Assembly: GCA_021817045.1 (NCBI GenBank) | Contig: JAKAWG010000003.1 | Coordinates: 1-64,000 of the forward strand | From: Acidobacteriota bacterium | Lineage (GTDB): Bacteria > Acidobacteriota > Terriglobia > UBA7540 | DNA length: 64,000 bases | Reading direction: 5' to 3' | Shown here: piece by piece, positions 991 to 30,471 of the stretch | How the letters are laid out: every line of letters begins with the position of its first letter | Position numbering within the stretch: the first letter of the stretch is position 1 | The notes under the pieces: model-generated | Seen by the model: only the letters and a program-made list of their open reading frames with translations | Database searches by the model: none | Told to the model about the DNA's origin: nothing | Translations under genes and position numbers: made by a program

Positions 991-1055
991 AAGAGCAAGT
1001 TTGTTTGTACGGAATTCGGCCCATTTGGGTCTTTCAGTGGCGGTGATTGTTTGAC

Positions 1056-3173
1056 ATGCGTTTCTCGTGCCGTTCATTCTTGAGGCAGTTGGCTGGCTGG
1101 CTTGGGGCCGCGGTCGCATGGAGTCGCGTGCCGGTTGCCGCCGCCTGGCAACCGGCCGAAGGTTCTCCAGGCATCCCTCGCATGGTCGCTCGGGACTTTT
1201 CCCGGCACTTCGACCCCGCCTATTCGAGTAACGGCTTGATCGGAATCCGCCCCGGCCCAAACCCTCTTGCCCAAGCGGCCGCGGCTCTGAGTGGCTTCGT
1301 TTACGCTCACCTTCCTTACCAGATGCAGGCCCTTTCGCCTGCGCCTTATCCGCTCATGATGGACGTGGTGGCAGGCGATGTCAGTCTCCTTGGCCGTCCC
1401 GACCTGCTCCAAATCCACCGGCAAGCTTTAGACATGGCCACCGGCGAACTCTCGACCCGGATGACCTTCTCGCCGAGAACCAGCGCGCGGTTCCAGCATG
1501 AGATTCTGCAATTCGCTTCCCGGTCTGTGCCAGCCTTGATGTGCCAGGAAGTCCGCATCACTCCGTCCGCCAACGTACAGGCGCTCCTCGCGTCGCAAAT
1601 TGGAACCAAGGGCGTGCCAGGAACGGTTTATCGGCAGTACCCGCCTCCACAAACCAAAATCGATTTGGTCATCGGCATCCGCAGCCATGGCGGACTAAGC
1701 AAGATGGGCGCGGCGGTTATGATGCTCCCCGGACCGGGAATCACGCGCGCGGGCGAGCCCTTTGCAACTGTCGAGCGTCTGATCCGTCGCTACGAATTTC
1801 ACGGCAGGGCGGGCGAGACTATTCGTTTTCAAACGATAGCGGCGATGGTTTCCGAGTTCTATCATCCCGAGCCTGAGCTGGAAGCTATTCGCATGGCTCG
1901 GTGGGGAGCGACGTTAGGTTTCGATTTTCTGCGCAAAGAGAACCGGGCACGTTGGGCGGAGCTTTGGAAGTCGCGCGCCAAAATCAGCGGCGACGCCGAG
2001 AGCCAGAAGGTTCTCGATGCTTCCTTCTTCTATCTTCATTCCAGTCTCAGCCCTTCGGATAAAACCGGCATGGCGCCATTCGGTTTGTCGCAGACAGGCG
2101 CCTATTACGGGCTCAGTTCTTGGGACACGGAGAGTTGGTCGCTGATTCCGGTGATGCTTGCATCGCCGGCAACCGCGAAATCGCTCCTTGAATTCAGGCG
2201 GCGCAGCCTCGGCCATGCGAAAAAGCTTGCCGCACTCTATGGGTATCGTGGCGCGCAATTTCCTTGGGAGGCGGCGCCCGTAGACGGCTTCGAGTCAACG
2301 CCCACCTTTGCCGCGACGGGCTGGGAAGAACAGCCTTCGACTCCCGACGTGGCCCTCGGATTTTGGGAGTGCCAAGTGGCCGATGGCGATGAAGGTTTTC
2401 TGAGACAAGCCACATGGCCCGTGCTGAAAGCGTTGGCCCAGTGGATTGTGAGCCGAGGCGTTTATACCCGGCGTGGGCTTGAAATCCATCACATCATGGG
2501 ACCCGATGAAGGGTCGCCCGATGTGAACAACGACGCTTATGTGAACGTGATCACGAAAACGGTTCTCCAGGACGCCGGGCAATGCGAGCAGAAGGTGGGC
2601 GAAGTTGCGCCGGCTTCCTGGCAGCGCGCCGCGCGGCGGCTGTTCGTTCCAATGGATTCCTCAAAGAACATTGTCTTGCCTTGCGACCATCCGCCCGAAG
2701 GTAAGAATTATCCGATCGGCGGTTTGGACATGCTCACCGTTCACGCCCCGCCTGTCAGCAAAGCCTTGCTCCGCAGAACTTTCAATTTCGAAGAAACACT
2801 TCGTGCGAGGCGCGCTCCGAGCATCGGATTTGCCACCGCTGCGGCTGCCGCGACGGCAGCGTATCTGGGTTATCGGAAGCAGGCTCAGTCGATGTCCCGA
2901 ACCGCGTGGGCAGCCGACGGGATGGAGCCGGTTGGAATGCTGAAGGAAGCGCCGGTAGAGACTTATGGCTGCTTCCTCACGAATTGCGGATCGTTGCTGC
3001 AAACGGTGATGCTGAGCTTCACCGGCTTGCGCATTCGTGAAGGCGACTGGCGCGCTTACCCGGCTAACCTGCCCGAAGGCTGGTCGAAAATTGAGATTGA
3101 CCAGGTGTGGGTTAAGGGAAACCCGCGCGCTCTTGTTGCTGAAAGCGGCAAGCTCGTCCGGTGGATGGAATGA
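1056..3173 (+). CDS. Secreted glycoside hydrolase family 65-like protein
   Basis: GH65 enzymes hydrolyse or phosphorolyse alpha-glucosides such as trehalose, kojibiose or maltose using an (alpha/alpha)6 barrel. The 705-residue protein has a hydrophobic export signal (about residues 7-30), an N-terminal beta-sandwich-like part and the barrel in the C-terminal half. The barrel carries GH65-type blocks: SSWDTESWSLIPVML (near residue 355), GAQFPWEAAP (near 400) and IMGPDEGSPDVNNDAYVNV, whose Glu (about 485) aligns with the general acid. A TTG three codons earlier (1047) is possible; the ATG is preferred. The stop overlaps the ATG of the trehalase-like gene, so the two are probably translationally coupled. 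Whether it is a hydrolase (acid-trehalase type) or acts on a glucosyl-glycan cannot be told from sequence. Signal peptide and absence of any phosphorylase context favour a periplasmic hydrolase. Confidence 0.8.
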   Translation: MRFSCRSFLRQLAGWLGAAVAWSRVPVAAAWQPAEGSPGIPRMVARDFSRHFDPAYSSNGLIGIRPGPNPLAQAAAALSGFVYAHLPYQMQALSPAPYPLMMDVVAGDVSLLGRPDLLQIHRQALDMATGELSTRMTFSPRTSARFQHEILQFASRSVPALMCQEVRITPSANVQALLASQIGTKGVPGTVYRQYPPPQTKIDLVIGIRSHGGLSKMGAAVMMLPGPGITRAGEPFATVERLIRRYEFHGRAGETIRFQTIAAMVSEFYHPEPELEAIRMARWGATLGFDFLRKENRARWAELWKSRAKISGDAESQKVLDASFFYLHSSLSPSDKTGMAPFGLSQTGAYYGLSSWDTESWSLIPVMLASPATAKSLLEFRRRSLGHAKKLAALYGYRGAQFPWEAAPVDGFESTPTFAATGWEEQPSTPDVALGFWECQVADGDEGFLRQATWPVLKALAQWIVSRGVYTRRGLEIHHIMGPDEGSPDVNNDAYVNVITKTVLQDAGQCEQKVGEVAPASWQRAARRLFVPMDSSKNIVLPCDHPPEGKNYPIGGLDMLTVHAPPVSKALLRRTFNFEETLRARRAPSIGFATAAAAATAAYLGYRKQAQSMSRTAWAADGMEPVGMLKEAPVETYGCFLTNCGSLLQTVMLSFTGLRIREGDWRAYPANLPEGWSKIEIDQVWVKGNPRALVAESGKLVRWME

Positions 3174-17643: not shown

Positions 17644-17862
17644 TCTATTTGGCGTTGCCGGTCCAAGCGGGTCGGGCATCTTCTTCGAGCTTGGACTTCT
17701 CCTTTGTGCCGGGGCGGACCCCATGTCAACATCTGCTAAATTTTGGTTTGATCGTCTAGAGACGCCACAAGGTGTGCAGGATGCTGAAGCGAAAACCGCA
17801 AGTACCGGTTGTGGTTCAATCTGCCGCCTGAGTAAGCAGCGGTCGAAGAGGAGTTGAAGACG

Positions 17863-18666
17863 ATGCTGTTAGATGAGAAAGCAGTTCTTGTTACTGGATC
17901 TGGAGGTGGGCTGGGCGAAGGGATTGCCCGAGTGTGTCATCGGGAAGGTGCAACTGTGGTGGTTGCAGATATTCGTGGAAATGAGGCACAGCGGGTGGCT
18001 CAATCGCTTGGGAATAGAGCCTTGGCTATTGAATGTGATGTAGGCCACGACGCTGACCTTGATCGCTTGGTTGCGATGAGCGTCGGGAAATTTGGACGTA
18101 TCGACGGGCTCGTAAACAATGCCGGAGTGAATTTCGTAAAACCCTTCCTCGAAACGACCTCCGATGATTGGGACCGTGTGATCCGCGTTGATCTGCGCGG
18201 CGCATTCTTCCTCACGCAGAAAGTATGCCGGCAAATGTTAGAGCAAACGCCTGGCGGCGGGAGCATCGTGAATATTGCGAGCGTGCATACGCACGCCGCT
18301 CTCCCTGGTTCAGGCCCATATGACGCCGCAAAGTGGGGCCTTGTGGGTTTCGGAAAAAGCATTGCCGTTGAATTGGCCGCACAAGACATTCGCGTCAACG
18401 CGATTTCGCCGGGACTGCTTGATACGCAAATCTGGCAGCAGATTCAGGCCGCAGCTCCAGACCCCGCGGCCTGTTCAGAATACTGGAAGTCGAATATTCC
18501 AATCGAGCGCGTCATTGAGCCGGAGGAGATTGGAGAGTTGGCGGCATTCCTGCTGAGCGATCGATCTCGCGCCATCACCGGCGCAAACATCATGGCGGAC
18601 GGCGGCATGACTTCACAATTGATCAGCAAGGAGCCATACAGATCAAAGCCGATTGAAGTAAATTGA
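17863..18666 (+). CDS. SDR-family NAD(P)-dependent oxidoreductase
   Basis: This is a classical short-chain dehydrogenase of 267 residues. The cofactor motif is TGSGGGLGEG (11-20), the structural motif VNNAGV (85-90) and the catalytic triad S140, Y153 and K157 (in PYDAAKWGL). The C-terminal PEEIGELAAFLLSDRSRAIT and GANIMADGGM are standard for glucose-dehydrogenase or FabG-like members. ATG 17863 is preferred over TTG 17854 because AGGAG lies 8 bases before the ATG and abuts the TTG. It ends the GH116-dehydrogenase-MBL-SDR series, so a sugar or sugar-acid substrate is likely. The precise substrate is not predictable. Confidence 0.85.
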   Translation: MLLDEKAVLVTGSGGGLGEGIARVCHREGATVVVADIRGNEAQRVAQSLGNRALAIECDVGHDADLDRLVAMSVGKFGRIDGLVNNAGVNFVKPFLETTSDDWDRVIRVDLRGAFFLTQKVCRQMLEQTPGGGSIVNIASVHTHAALPGSGPYDAAKWGLVGFGKSIAVELAAQDIRVNAISPGLLDTQIWQQIQAAAPDPAACSEYWKSNIPIERVIEPEEIGELAAFLLSDRSRAITGANIMADGGMTSQLISKEPYRSKPIEVN

Positions 18667-18859: not shown

Positions 18860-18894
18860 GAGCATTTTGAAAAAACAAACTCGGTTTTTCCTCA

Positions 18895-19080
18895 GATACT
18901 TCTCATAAGTCATTTGCTTTCAGTAACTTTAATGCGCGAAAACAATCTCATCCGTAACAGGTTTATATTCAATGAGATACATGGATACAGGGAGTTTGTT
19001 CCTGAATTGCTCCTCTAACGGCCATTTGTTTTCAATGAGTTGAACGAAGTTTGTTCCTCAATAAACATTCTTTTTCCGCG
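18895..19080 (+). repeat. ~170-bp dispersed element, copy 2 of 3
   Basis: This copy aligns along its length with 29670-29880: AAGTCATTTGCTTTCAGTAA, GATACATGG, GGGAGTTTGTT, TTGTTTTCAATGAG and CAATAAAC-TTCTTTTTCCGC. It is the most diverged of the three and its inverted arms are reduced to a short ACAA/TTGT pair. No gene lies between the SDR gene and the small membrane protein gene except this element. Confidence 0.6.
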
Positions 19081-19746
19081 TCCGACGTTTCCTGGCTCGC
19101 TCGAGGGTACCTGGGTTACATCGAACGGGAAAAAAGACGAGCATGAATTCGTTGTTTCGCATCTTGATGAAGTAGCCTAGCATGCTAGTAATCGGCATCG
19201 GCGTCAAGGGCTTGAAGATACGGTCGCGTCCTAATCTGAGGGTAGCGCCGGCACCTGCCGAGCTAAAGCTCGGCGCTACGCCTGAAATGAGGTTAGGACG
19301 CCACCGATGACACCACACCGGGCCAACCGGCTGGAGTTCTCGTCTGATGATGGGCTGCGGAGCGTCTTCCGAGCCAATGGCTCGTCTGAGGAGCTTCACG
19401 GGTTCGTTGCCACAATGGATTCCATTTGCTGCTGCTTGCACCACATCAGCAAATCATTCGCCAGATGCGCGCATCGCCGCAAGGCCTGACGTGACAGCTT
19501 CAAAAAGTGTGATGCGGTCACATCGGCGCTAGGCCTAACGCCCTTCAGCCATGCTAAACTGGCATGAAGGCAGAGCCATATGCCGGTAGCCTACCAGTTT
19601 CGCTTTTAATTCGTCCGTCGGGTACGCCGCTTCGTTTTTCGCTTCCGATTCTCTTTCTGTTCGCCTAATCAATAAACAGCTAAATACTTACTTCCACGCG
19701 GGAAGTCTGCTACTTTTCGCCGATAGAGAGCAACAAGGAATGAATC
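19081..19746. other. Intergenic with one hairpin, no gene recognised
   Basis: The segment contains GCCGAGCTAAAGCTCGGC at about 19258-19275, nested in GTAGCGCC...GGCGCTAC, a REP-like hairpin resembling those at 25355-25382 and 29534-29600. Open frames such as 19058-19444 (- strand) have no family features. A purine-rich AAGGAA precedes the next gene. Confidence 0.5.
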
Positions 19747-24509: not shown

Positions 24510-24594
24510 GCGAAAGTGGCGGAATTGGCAGACGCGCCAGACTTAGGATCTGGTCCCGCAAGGGGTGGGGGTTCGAGTCCCCCCTTTCGCACCA
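24510..24594 (+). tRNA. tRNA-Leu (anticodon UAG), CCA encoded
   Basis: The acceptor stem GCGAAAG (24510-24516) pairs with CTTTCGC (24584-24590), followed by ACCA at 24591-24594. The anticodon stem CCAGA/TCTGG encloses the loop CTTAGGA with anticodon TAG (24544-24546). A long variable arm (CCCGCAAGGGGTG region) and the T-loop GTTCGAGTC confirm a class II leucine tRNA that reads CUA and probably other CUN codons. It lies on the opposite strand from the response-regulator gene, whose stop is 34 bases away. No integrase or attachment duplication was seen next to it. Confidence 0.95.
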
Positions 24595-25601: not shown

Positions 25602-28600
25602 CTACTTCTTACCGCCGTCGACGGGCAGCGTGGCCCGGATTGTACTTCCTTTCTTCCCGGAATTTATCTCTAAACGACCTCCCGCATCATGCACCCGCTC
25701 TTCGATGGAGTGCAATCCGAGGCCGGCTTTGGTGCCGAGCTTGCCATCCTGTTCCAAAACGCCCGGCGGCATTCCCCGGCCGCCATCGCTGATCTCGACC
25801 ACCAGATTGCCATCGGACGATGTGACGCTGAGCCGCGCCATTGTGCTTCCCGAGTGTCGATGGATGTTGGAAAGCGCCTCCTGCACAACGCGGAAAACAG
25901 TCATCTTGAGCGTGGCGGAGAGATTATCCGAGTTCTCCGGAAGGTCTGTCTTCACCTGAACACCGCTCCGCTCGACGAAACCCTCCACATACCACCTTAA
26001 GGCGCCCGCCAGGCCGAGCGTGTCCAGGAGCGGCGGGTGGAGCAGGTAGGCAAGCGTGCGAACCTCGCGCGCGCACTGGTTCGCCAAGGTTGACGCGTGG
26101 CGCAGGTTTGCGCGCGATTCCTCATCGAGCATACCCGCGGACTTACTGGTTAAGGACAAGAGTATGTTCAGGTCGGCAAGGGCGGCGGCGGTCGTGTCGT
26201 GCAGCTCGCGGGCCAACCTCTGCCGTTCCTCATCTTGCAGCGTGAAGAAGCGGCCGGAAAGTCTTCGGACCGACTCGCCCGCCTGCTTAAGCTCGGTTAC
26301 GTCTTCAATCGCAAGCAGGATCACGGCCTCGCCGGCCTGTTCGATGCGCCGAGCATTGAGCAACATGCTGCGGTGGCCAATGGCGGGGAACTCGTGATCC
26401 ACTTCGAAGTCCTCAACCACGGCACTCTGAGGTAGGACCTCTTCGAGCAAAGTTCGCAGCTTGGGAACATTCCACTGCCCGTTGCCCAGCTCGTACAGGA
26501 AGCGGTTCTCGACCTCTTCGGGCGAAACTTGGAAAGCCTGGTAGAAGGTCCGGTTGGCGGTCTTCACGCGCAACTGCCCGTCCAGGACGAGCAAAGATTC
26601 GCGCGCGCTATCCACAATGGCCTCCGCATAAGCCGTGGCGCGCTGCAGGCTGACCTTCAAGGCCGTGATCTCAATCCAGATGATCACGGCGCCGTCGAGC
26701 TTGTTCTCGGTGGTACGGTAGGGCCGGATGCGCATCGCGTACCATCGACCCTGGCGGTCCTGCACCTCCTGTTCCTTGATCGTGACGGCATCGATAGACT
26801 CCGTAATGAGTTCCTCCAGGTTGGCGAGAGTGAAATTGGGCTTGATATCGCCGATCGGCCGGCCAACGTCGGTAGGAATCAGGTTAAGCAGCCTTTCCGC
26901 CTGCGGAGTGAAGCGCCGGATGCGCAGATCGTTGCCCAGTATGAGAATGGGAATGTTAACGCTCGCCAGCAGGTTCAGCATATCGTTGTGGGCGACGCTC
27001 AATTCTGTGTTGCGGTTCTGCAATTCTTCGTTCAGCGTGGTGAGCTCTTCATTGGTGGATTGCAATTCCTCTTTGGCAGTTTCGAGCTCCTCGTTGGTGC
27101 TTTGCAGTTCTTCGTTCGAAGATAAAATCTCCTCGTTAGCGGACTTCAATTCCTCGTTGGTGGTGTCCTGCTCCTCGATGACCGACTGAAGCGTGCTCTT
27201 GGTCTGAGCCAACTCATGTTTCAACTGGCCCACCTGCCGCTCCGTGACCCTTTCGGCCTTTGGGCCGGGCTTGCCCTTCCGGTCGGCGACCCTGGGCAGC
27301 TCGATCTTTGGCGCTGGTTTGGATTCCTGGAAGAGGACCAGATAATAGCGCTCTGCCGGCGTCGGACCTCGCAGCGGAATCACCTCGAGATCGACCTCGC
27401 GCGTGCCGCCGTTGGACCGGAATTCCACCCCTTGCTTCTTGACTAAGACATCATTCTTCTTGGCCTTTTGCAGGGCGCCGCGCAGGTCTACCAGCAATCC
27501 TTCCCGAGTCATCTTGGAAAGATTGAGGCTGGCCTGCCCGGGCGTGGGCTCAAGGTAAGCGCCCGTGCGGCCCCGGAACTGAAGAATTTCCAGGTCCTGG
27601 TTGACGATCACGCCGGCGGGAGCGAACCGGGCAAGCAGAACGCGTTCCGCCTCCTTCTGGACGTCGAACTCTGCGACGGCTTCTTCGAAGACGTGCCGTA
27701 CTGCTTGCCGATCGGCTGCGTAGTCCGGTCTCTCCAATGCGTAGGGCGGCAGCCGAAGCGCGGTGGCCTTCTTGGCGTAGATCTTGTTCTTTTTGTCTAT
27801 TAACGTGAAATGGTCTCCGAACGGGCCAATCGTTTCCGAAGTTCCTAGCATCAGAAAGCCCGTCGGCTTGAGGGCGTAGTGAAAGACGGGAATGACTTTT
27901 TTCTGCAGCACCGCTCCCAGATAGATCAGCAGATTGCGGCAGCTTATGAGGTCGAGCCGCGAGAAGGGCGGGCCCTTGGCAACGTCCTGGCGCGCGAACA
28001 CGAACATGTCGCGGAGGGATTTGTTGATCTGGTAACCGCGTGAGGTCTTTGCGAAGAAGCGCCGCAAGCGCTCCGGCGAAACTTCGGTCGTGATATTTTC
28101 CAAGTAGAGTCCCGTGCGAGCCTTTTCCAGCGCGGCCTCACTAATGTCGGTGGCAAAGAACTGCATTTCTCTTCCGTTGGCCGAGTCGCCGAGATATTCC
28201 ATCAGCGCCATGGCGATGGAATAGGCTTCCTCGCCCGTCGAGCAGCCCGGCACCCAAATGCGGATGGGGACGTTAGGCCGCCGGTCCTTCATGAGCACAG
28301 GAAACACCTGGGCTTTCAACGCTTCGAAAACTTGTGGATCGCGGAAAAATCCGGTGACGTGGATGAGGATGTCCTCGTAGAGCGCGTCGAGCTCCGCTCG
28401 ATTGCTTTCGAGTAAAGCAACGTAGTCCTGCACCTCCTGGAGCTTATGGAGCACCATCCGCCGCTTGATCCGCCGCTTGATGGTGGTGTGCTTATAATGG
28501 GTGAAATCGACTCCGGCGGCCGCGCGCAACAGCGCGAAAATCCTGCGCAAGGCCTCTTCCCCTTCAGCCGGTAATCCGACCGCTTCTTCGATGGTTCGCG

Positions 28601-29258
28601 TCTGGAGCAAATAAGGATGATGCGCGATCCGCACCAACTCACGCGCGATGCCTTCGGGCGAAAGCACAAAGTCCACGCTCCCGCTCGCCACCGCGTTCCG
28701 CGGCATGTCGCCATATTTGGCGGACTTCGTGTCCTGGGCAAACGTAATGCCGCCTTCCGTCTTGATTGCTTGCAGGCCCAGCGTACCGTCGGAAGCAGTG
28801 CCGGAGAGGATCACGCCGATGGCGCGGCTCCCGAGTTCTTCTGCCAGCGAGCGCAAAAAGTAGTCGATGGGCAGGTGCTGCGTGTCCGGGGTGCGGGGCA
28901 CCAGGTAGAGCCTGCCTTTTTGAATCGCCATGTTGGTGTTGGGCGGAATGACGTAAATCCGGTCGCGCTCGACGACCATGCCGTTTTTCACCTCCATGAC
29001 TATGGTCCGCGTGGCTCGGGCGAGGAGCCCTGTAAGCGCGCTCTCGTGTTGTGGGGCCAGGTGCTGGATGAAGACCAGCGCCATGCCGGGACTAGCGGGC
29101 AAGTGCGAGAGTAATTGAGTAAAAGCTTCTAAACCGCCGGCCGAAGCGCCAATGCCGACGATCGGAAATAACGTCTTGTCCTGGGCCTTGCGTGTCGTCG
29201 CGCGCTCCTTGCCGCCTGGCGGCTTCGTCGCCGGTTGTTGGCGTGATGGTTTTCGCAT
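25602..29258 (-). CDS. CheB-CheR-PAS hybrid sensor histidine kinase
   Basis: The 1218-residue fusion starts with a CheB methylesterase domain (about 31-215) that keeps its Ser39, His66 and Asp157 (GIGASAGG, IQHLAP, SGTASDG). A CheR methyltransferase domain follows (about 225-495; RIWVPGCSTGEEAYSIAMAL and FFATDIS). Next is a long heptad-rich coiled coil (about 660-760, with repeated S-T-N-E-E-L and S-N-E-E-L units), two PAS-like domains and a HisKA_3/HATPase_c kinase (LARELHDTTAAALADLNI; VFRVVQEALSNIHRHS). CheB/CheR-fused kinases of this type are common in soil bacteria but their methylation target is usually unknown. GAGGAAA precedes the ATG. The NarL-type regulator downstream is the likely partner. 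Confidence 0.9.
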   Translation of the reverse strand: MRKPSRQQPATKPPGGKERATTRKAQDKTLFPIVGIGASAGGLEAFTQLLSHLPASPGMALVFIQHLAPQHESALTGLLARATRTIVMEVKNGMVVERDRIYVIPPNTNMAIQKGRLYLVPRTPDTQHLPIDYFLRSLAEELGSRAIGVILSGTASDGTLGLQAIKTEGGITFAQDTKSAKYGDMPRNAVASGSVDFVLSPEGIARELVRIAHHPYLLQTRTIEEAVGLPAEGEEALRRIFALLRAAAGVDFTHYKHTTIKRRIKRRMVLHKLQEVQDYVALLESNRAELDALYEDILIHVTGFFRDPQVFEALKAQVFPVLMKDRRPNVPIRIWVPGCSTGEEAYSIAMALMEYLGDSANGREMQFFATDISEAALEKARTGLYLENITTEVSPERLRRFFAKTSRGYQINKSLRDMFVFARQDVAKGPPFSRLDLISCRNLLIYLGAVLQKKVIPVFHYALKPTGFLMLGTSETIGPFGDHFTLIDKKNKIYAKKATALRLPPYALERPDYAADRQAVRHVFEEAVAEFDVQKEAERVLLARFAPAGVIVNQDLEILQFRGRTGAYLEPTPGQASLNLSKMTREGLLVDLRGALQKAKKNDVLVKKQGVEFRSNGGTREVDLEVIPLRGPTPAERYYLVLFQESKPAPKIELPRVADRKGKPGPKAERVTERQVGQLKHELAQTKSTLQSVIEEQDTTNEELKSANEEILSSNEELQSTNEELETAKEELQSTNEELTTLNEELQNRNTELSVAHNDMLNLLASVNIPILILGNDLRIRRFTPQAERLLNLIPTDVGRPIGDIKPNFTLANLEELITESIDAVTIKEQEVQDRQGRWYAMRIRPYRTTENKLDGAVIIWIEITALKVSLQRATAYAEAIVDSARESLLVLDGQLRVKTANRTFYQAFQVSPEEVENRFLYELGNGQWNVPKLRTLLEEVLPQSAVVEDFEVDHEFPAIGHRSMLLNARRIEQAGEAVILLAIEDVTELKQAGESVRRLSGRFFTLQDEERQRLARELHDTTAAALADLNILLSLTSKSAGMLDEESRANLRHASTLANQCAREVRTLAYLLHPPLLDTLGLAGALRWYVEGFVERSGVQVKTDLPENSDNLSATLKMTVFRVVQEALSNIHRHSGSTMARLSVTSSDGNLVVEISDGGRGMPPGVLEQDGKLGTKAGLGLHSIEERVHDAGGRLEINSGKKGSTIRATLPVDGGKK

Positions 29259-29629: not shown

Positions 29630-29669
29630 ATAACACGAACCGTCGCGATTTTCAGCAAACAATTTCGCC

Positions 29670-29880
29670 ATTTTTCTCTAATACATTGAGCCAAGTCACC
29701 TGTTTTCTGCAACTTATACTTTTACCAACAATTTGCTCCAATTGCACCTTTAGAATCAATTTGGATACATGGTCTCGGGGAGTTTGTTGGTAATTCTTCG
29801 CTTTCGCAATCCTGTGTTTTCAATGAGCTAGGTGTTGGTTCGTCAATAAACAATCTCTTTCTCCTTGGCGCCTTTTTCCG
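29670..29880 (+). repeat. ~170-bp dispersed element, copy 3 of 3
   Basis: This is the best-preserved reference copy. It has a perfect inverted pair TTACCAACAA (29722-29731) and TTGTTGGTAA (29784-29793) around 52 bases, followed by TGTTTTCAATGAG, GTCAATAAACAATCTCTTTC and a GC-rich end. The first copy on the - strand matches it closely over the whole length. No shared open frame exists, so the conserved object is DNA or RNA. Confidence 0.65.
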
Positions 29881-30471
29881 GAGCGAGTCCGGCGCACCGG
29901 GAGCGGATATGCATGGCTTTTGTTCTTCTAAAAAGAGAGAGCCGCAAATCGGGTCGTCGAGATCAATAAACTCCTTCCCGCGCCCCCCGCTTTCGCGGAG
30001 TATCAGCTTCGCGGAAATGACGCGTCGGGGATGGTTCCATACAGAACGTCTAAAGTTGACGTGCCCTGATACGCCGCCAGCCGCTGATGCGCAGCTATTT
30101 ATGTCGCTCTGTATAGCAGGCCACAGCCAGGCGAAGAATCTGGTCTTGTCCAAGGCAAAGCCCCGGGATTACTGCGAGGGGGGAATCGTCCAATCGGCGC
30201 GCTCGGTGAGGGTAAAAAACCGCGCGCACCCATTTTTATTTATATCATATTCCTCGCCGGCTTGTCAAGCTATGTAGGCTACCTAGAATATCGCGTCAAG
30301 ATGTATATGCTGGCCGGTAGTAATTAGGTAGTTATCAAGAATTGTTTGTACGCGTTGTACAGACAAATCCTCTAGTCCCGTATACATAATCAACCGTCTA
30401 GCGCCAAACAAGAGGAAACAGAATAATAGTCATGGTGTAAACGCGGACGGTTTGGGCAGCGTAATTTGAAC
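29881..30471. other. AT-rich intergenic region upstream of the twin zinc-knuckle genes
   Basis: No gene is seen. 30210-30440 is noticeably richer in A and T than the surroundings. It includes a promoter-like pair at 30262-30289 and the half REP GTGCCCTGATACG at 30061-30073. Confidence 0.5.
30262..30289 (+). promoter_or_regulatory. Candidate sigma-70-type promoter
   Basis: TTGTCA (30262-30267) and TAGAAT (30284-30289) are separated by 16 bases inside an AT-rich stretch. The nearest gene on this strand begins at 30472, leaving a leader of about 175 bases. This is a consensus match by eye, without independent support. Confidence 0.4.

Follow-up and report, generated by a model that had tools for sequence, protein, structure and literature searches.

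Three segments of the window, a stretch of 64,000 nucleotides from an Acidobacteriota genome, resemble each other, and the question they raise is what kind of element they represent. An earlier note had offered three options for this repeat of ~170 bp, i.e., a mobile non-coding element, a regulatory RNA or a fold-based leader. The segments exist and can indeed be aligned, but the ends of a covariance model give the block an extent of ~205–210 bp, and its functional reading strand, when it is read with the neighboring genes, is the reverse of the orientation originally given. The first of the three options is the best supported one because of the copy number, the common ends, the lineage-specific positions and the link to a multi-copy ORF, called KHG. 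The block is probably the 3′ tail of a copy-spreading KHG unit, the solo copies being non-autonomous, MITE-like members.

The repeat family in the window, the genome and its relatives

Copies were located with R1, a sequence-only covariance model made from an alignment of 30 copies. The features in the window are the following:

496–520, + strand: 5′ GTCTC iteron module of copy 1 (pattern, 0 expected; module HMM in L008)
807–1011, + strand: copy 1, 3′ tail module, class 1 (R1 model, E 1.9e-43)
1047–3173, + strand: gene of the glycoside hydrolase 65 family, downstream of copy 1 (Pfam)
18866–19075, − strand: copy 2, 3′ tail module, class-2-like, decayed arms (R1 model, E 1.2e-31)
25602–29258, − strand: gene downstream of copy 3, CheB-CheR-PAS-histidine kinase, 1218 aa (Pfam)
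29650–29860, − strand: copy 3, 3′ tail module, class 1 (R1 model, E 4.6e-37; 30-copy alignment)
29722–29731, no strand: left arm TTACCAACAA of copy 3, in the inverted pair that covaries (sequence; covariation)
29784–29793, no strand: right arm TTGTTGGTAA of the same pair (sequence; covariation)
30174–30268, − strand: 5′ module of copy 3 (HMM match in L001 left flank; sequence)

Copy 3 has the perfect 10-base arms around a 52-base interior that had been described, and copy 1 keeps both arms with one change (872–881 and 933–942), again as noted earlier; those of copy 2 are mostly decayed. The conserved block TGTTTTCAATGAG was located at 29815–29827. The 5′ module of copy 3 consists of TTGACA (30268–30263), an 18-bp spacer, TATAAA (30244–30239) and then a leader to 30174 with a GC hairpin and CCCTC motifs, and modules of the same type precede KHG genes. 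The motif matches at 30174–30184 and 30206–30216 within it are, by themselves, not above chance. In copy 1, the conserved part of the GTCTC module covers ~488–560, and the module lies 246 nt from the tail. The tail of copy 3 faces the CheB/CheR-PAS-histidine-kinase gene. The gene on the tail side of copy 2, an SDR gene (17854–18666, + strand), is convergent, which makes this copy an exception to the orientation bias discussed below. Thus, the earlier statement that the neighboring genes explain nothing holds for the flanking genes, but it missed the reverse reading strand and overlooked the upstream 5′ module and the status of the block as the tail of a gene family.

Directly upstream of copy 2, a separate long palindromic repeat, GCGTCCTAATCTGAGGGTAGCGCCGG...CGGCGCTACGCCTGAAATGAGGTTAGGACGC, is located at 19227–19312. 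Since its close copies flank KHG loci (e.g., L168 and L172), it too is a dispersed repeat, of a REP-like type with GTAG. The sole RNA gene found in the window is a tRNA-Leu gene (24510–24594).

In the 5.25-Mb draft genome, the model detects 57 copies of the block at E ≤ 1e-14, far more than three chance-like ones, and two further pieces that are truncated at contig ends; with blastn, the best copy matches ~40 genomic sites. This copy number is far beyond chance. The copies are spread over many contigs and have common sharp edges, and, as they diverge from each other by 20–32%, no recent jump is seen. The tail contains a half-site, SSAACRAAYTT, both as inverted and as direct copies, arranged in repeat units ~57 bp apart. 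Three classes of tails can be distinguished, i.e., class 1 with CCAACAA/CGAACAA, class 2 with GGAACAA, and class 3 with GGAACGAAC; the class was read from the arms, and four copies fall in no class.

A blastn search of related genomes with the best copy found nothing. The covariance model, in contrast, detected copies in two congeneric species, at least 39 in G002 and at least 30 in G003, both of which have a sequence version of their own; within G002, the identity between copies averages 81%. Related tails with repeats ~57 bp apart are found in other genera of the family. A 31-bp unit pattern derived from these tails was matched in six other genomes within the family, with 35, 16, 45, 20, 23, and 47 copies, and in one genome of a distant family, with 12; the reversed pattern, used as a control, had zero matches in these seven genomes. 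The genome under study and G003 miss the 31-bp pattern, their units differing in spacing or sequence. A lone class-3-like tail (E 2.9e-22) is present in a genome of another genus (L081, G041:C157:12744-12953). It is far closer to the family of the genome under study than are the tails of same-genus species, and it possibly results from horizontal transfer or a misbinned contig.

Covarying arms: DNA half-sites or an RNA stem

The arms covary over the 57 copies. One pair of columns has C-G in 25 copies and G-C in 25, and the adjacent pair has G-C in 26 and C-G in 25; other columns show A-T in 43 and G-C in 11, or T-A in 33 and A-T in 12, all of these counts coming from related copies with few independent events and at least three states. 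Among 30 copies, 96.6% of the arm cells pair, vs. 89% in shuffled and 16–58% in slid controls. The 8-bp pair covaries two-sidedly to an extent that was reached in none of 500 shuffles, and sister species G002 provides a further compensated state of the arms, ACGAACAA/TTGTTCGT.

Two-sided covariation beyond both kinds of controls is what would be expected of a structured RNA with a conserved fold, either a leader or a small RNA. Nevertheless, we consider such an RNA very unlikely. The alignment-wide fold contains this helix only, and no Rfam covariance model matched the block. Two other candidate helices, L-R1 and L-R2, were rejected as independent structural support, being hardly above shuffles, and so was a match to the c-di-GMP riboswitch at chance level (17 bits, E 0.23). 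Furthermore, the mismatches in the arms of the 57 copies comprise 10 of the GT/TG and 16 of the AC/CA type; hence, wobble-type changes prefer neither strand, and a palindrome of DNA half-sites would be no worse a fit than an RNA stem. The half-site of the arms recurs within each tail in both orientations, and these other copies change in concert with it, which suggests a common binder. The arms can therefore be taken for paired protein half-sites in the DNA no less readily than for an RNA stem, and neither the regulatory RNA nor the fold-based leader of the earlier note finds support here. A cis-regulatory role is possible, given the upstream, sense-oriented position of most copies.

The KHG gene and the copies without it

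Several copies have a paralogous ORF of ~320 aa at the distal end of the tail, which is named KHG after its N-terminal motif GPRTxxGKARVSLNALKHG. In the genome under study, the tail is located at or right after the stop codon in each of the four close KHG copies whose 3′ end can be seen (on C120, C147, C6, and C81), and the final codons of KHG are the first bases of the tail in two copies (e.g., KKRLFRGG in L179). A KHG gene of a sister species (L159) likewise carries a tail, and the one of a distant family is directly followed, after its stop codon, by a tandem array of ~57-bp tail units. Different KHG copies bear different classes of tails.

KHG matches no family in Pfam or NCBIfam and does not resemble known transposases or nucleases, RuvC/TnpB included. 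No description of its motifs was found in the literature searched, and no relatives were found in viral contigs, plasmids or phages. At least 16 matches are present in the genome under study, and the distribution in the phylum is patchy, i.e., 3 of 119 sampled genomes, with a scan based on a two-sequence alignment recovering only the two sister genomes. Structure prediction yielded models with a pLDDT of 55–63, of which the pLDDT-63 model is all-α, with low confidence. This model, which is weak evidence, lacks the β-sheets of RNase-H or HUH transposases; a PDB fold search yielded no helpful match (best E 0.36). The ends of contigs C20, C71, C104, C120, C147, and C6 interrupt KHG genes, the probable cause being the near-identity of their middle ~130 nt, and the draft assembly thus conceals the number of intact copies.

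The copies that lack the ORF share more with KHG genes than the tail. In 30 of the 57 copies, the tail is preceded at a distance of 81–504 nt by a 5′ module of the GTCTC type, AAAAAACTGTCTCATTTGTCTCACCTGTCTCCACTGTCTCA, with a sharp left edge; it was not detected in the other 27. This module also precedes KHG ORFs of several subfamilies. A second type, composed of a TTGACA/TATAAA-like promoter and a leader with a GC hairpin and CCCTCGC motifs, is present in several other copies of the genome and in 7 of 27 copies of the sister species, and again upstream of KHG genes. In addition, two intermediates were encountered, one with the N-terminal 42 codons of KHG and a tail (L167) and the other with a frame-broken KHG and a tail (L118). 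Together, the shared modules and these intermediates indicate that a solo element is a KHG unit that lacks its ORF.

Such remnants could also be left by old KHG pseudogenes that arose by ordinary duplication and decay of the ORF, their ends surviving by chance. This would agree with the high divergence of the copies and with gene conversion being at work, as KHG genes have near-identical middles and differing ends, a sign of gene conversion or recent homogenization. However, most copies retain both ends even though the ORF is gone, each species has a homogeneous version, as illustrated by G002, and the spacers at loci of conserved gene order differ in an insertion-like manner (see below). We therefore regard mere pseudogene decay as very unlikely.

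Position, likeness to known systems and meaning

The tails are strongly oriented with respect to genes. According to a home-made codon-usage gene caller, whose individual assignments may be mistaken, the tail-side gene is directed away from the tail in 23/25 class 1 and 15/16 class 2 copies (together 38/41; binomial 1e-8) and in 25/27 copies of the sister species, but in just 5/11 class 3 copies (Fisher p 0.0014), whilst gene orientation on the non-tail side is unbiased (28:20 and 8:13). Many tails stop ~10–60 nt short of a start codon. The downstream genes have no common function, and a comparison of the tail-side genes with those of the sister species revealed one clear shared orthologous pair among 57 × 28 loci. 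At two loci with conserved gene order, i.e., those of PALP and M13 peptidase, the spacer is ~565–900 nt including the unit, as compared to ~100–250 nt in relatives without it. This difference points to lineage-specific gain, even if the relatives may, formally, have lost the unit. A species-specific tail is located upstream of uvrA both in this genome (L015) and in G003 (L211), and upstream of an outer-membrane efflux gene both in this genome (L024) and in G002 (L137). These may be shared old insertions with concerted evolution, or insertion hot spots.

The main rival explanation takes the tail as a cis-regulatory operator or promoter, with the KHG proteins as DNA-binding regulators and the tails as multi-site operators of many target genes. 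The one-sided orientation towards start codons, the short distance to them and the covarying half-sites all suit this explanation. It does not account for the random orientation of class 3, nor for targets that lack a shared function and are mostly non-orthologous between sister species. Moreover, the 5′ module and the ORF remnants would be superfluous for an operator, and a consistent sigma-70 promoter was not found inside the tail. On balance, an operator is a rather unlikely explanation, albeit one to be taken more seriously than a structured RNA or decayed pseudogenes. Directed insertion could account for the bias, as could selection for units with a correctly directed promoter; the random orientation of class 3 favors selection, or a younger age of this class.

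Among known systems, REP elements are 20–40-bp hairpins tagged GTAG or CGTC that are associated with RAYT (Y1 HUH) transposases (PMC3733652). As in that system, dispersed extragenic repeats are found here together with a gene flanked by the same repeat, and the half-sites are palindromic with species-specific subfamilies (PMC3733652). However, the repeat described here is ~210 bp long with arms 52 bp apart rather than a 20–40-bp GTAG/CGTC hairpin, its partner KHG is not a Y1 protein, having no Pfam match, and the repeat is located only 3′ of the ORF. Y1 genes do occur nearby. At C157:7199-12206 of the genome under study (L107), there are three matches to Y1 (RAYT-like) transposases on one strand, the last ORF ending ~160 nt before a tail; the end of this ORF is overlapped by a TTGACA..TATACTAGCC promoter that resembles other 5′ modules. 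Y1 matches within ~2 kb of tails, in the same orientation, are also present on C9 and C138. Despite these three contigs, mobilization by RAYT was set aside, since neither the partner ORF nor the type of repeat fits, and none of the Y1 loci retrieved from G002 and G003 has a tail in its flanks.

MITEs and small mobile sequences such as Correia and RU elements are short, ORF-less, multi-copy and intergenic, and derive from coding elements by internal loss, which resembles the 57 short, ORF-less copies with common sharp ends. The ends are shared here with KHG genes, which do not encode a known transposase. The MITE-like reading has to face several objections. The 5′ ends (AAAAAACTGTCTC.. or of the TTGACA type) and the 3′ ends (..TTGTTTGTCCAAAAT) are not inverted copies of each other, so that terminal inverted repeats are lacking; no target-site duplications were seen by eye at the printed flanks, the exact ends being uncertain by several bases; and KHG is unlike known transposases. 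Strong one-way orientation ahead of genes is also unusual for passive mobile elements. The sharing of a 3′ end that overlaps the end of the ORF between autonomous and non-autonomous copies is reminiscent of LINE/SINE tails and of tnpB with its 3′ omega RNA, but no reverse transcriptase is present in the tail-rich sister genomes G002 and G003, and the tnpB comparison fails on the missing RuvC/TnpB match of KHG. Thus, the system appears to work in a REP/RAYT- or MITE-like manner, yet it misses defining features of both, i.e., a Y1 partner, a GTAG/CGTC hairpin and terminal inverted repeats.

The motifs Acido-1, Acido-Lenti-1, Solibacter-1, and Soil-1 were previously reported as acidobacterial or soil non-coding candidates (PMC2864571). 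The first two are in Rfam and do not match the tail. No description of the tail family was found in the literature searched, leaving aside Solibacter-1 and Soil-1, which carry no Rfam accession in the table of that paper; a prior partial description is therefore possible.

Returning to the copy-spreading KHG unit, a full unit would consist of a 5′ promoter/leader module, the KHG ORF and the 3′ tail of ~210 bp. Most copies, including the three in the window, would have lost the ORF and kept the tail, often with the 5′ module. As each KHG copy has its own class of tail, the KHG protein presumably binds half-sites of its own tail and, alone or together with a host enzyme, may spread the copies. 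Sense copies ahead of genes would be favored because the unit brings its own promoter. Perhaps, KHG is an undescribed mobile-element protein, without a known nuclease fold, that recognizes arrays of clade-specific half-sites in the 3′ tail of its own gene and thereby directs the oriented insertion or copying of ORF-less units to sites just upstream of host genes across the Acidobacteriota; this more specific proposal is tentative.

Acidobacteriota are one of the commonest phyla in soil. Dozens of copies per genome of a repeat/gene system that is unnamed in standard databases are located ahead of metabolic and housekeeping genes. The half-sites in the tail change coupled with the clade of KHG, which makes the binding hypothesis directly testable. 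If KHG spreads the tails, this would constitute a new mobilization system, and if the tails drive or control the downstream genes, they would form a rapidly turning-over layer of gene regulation.
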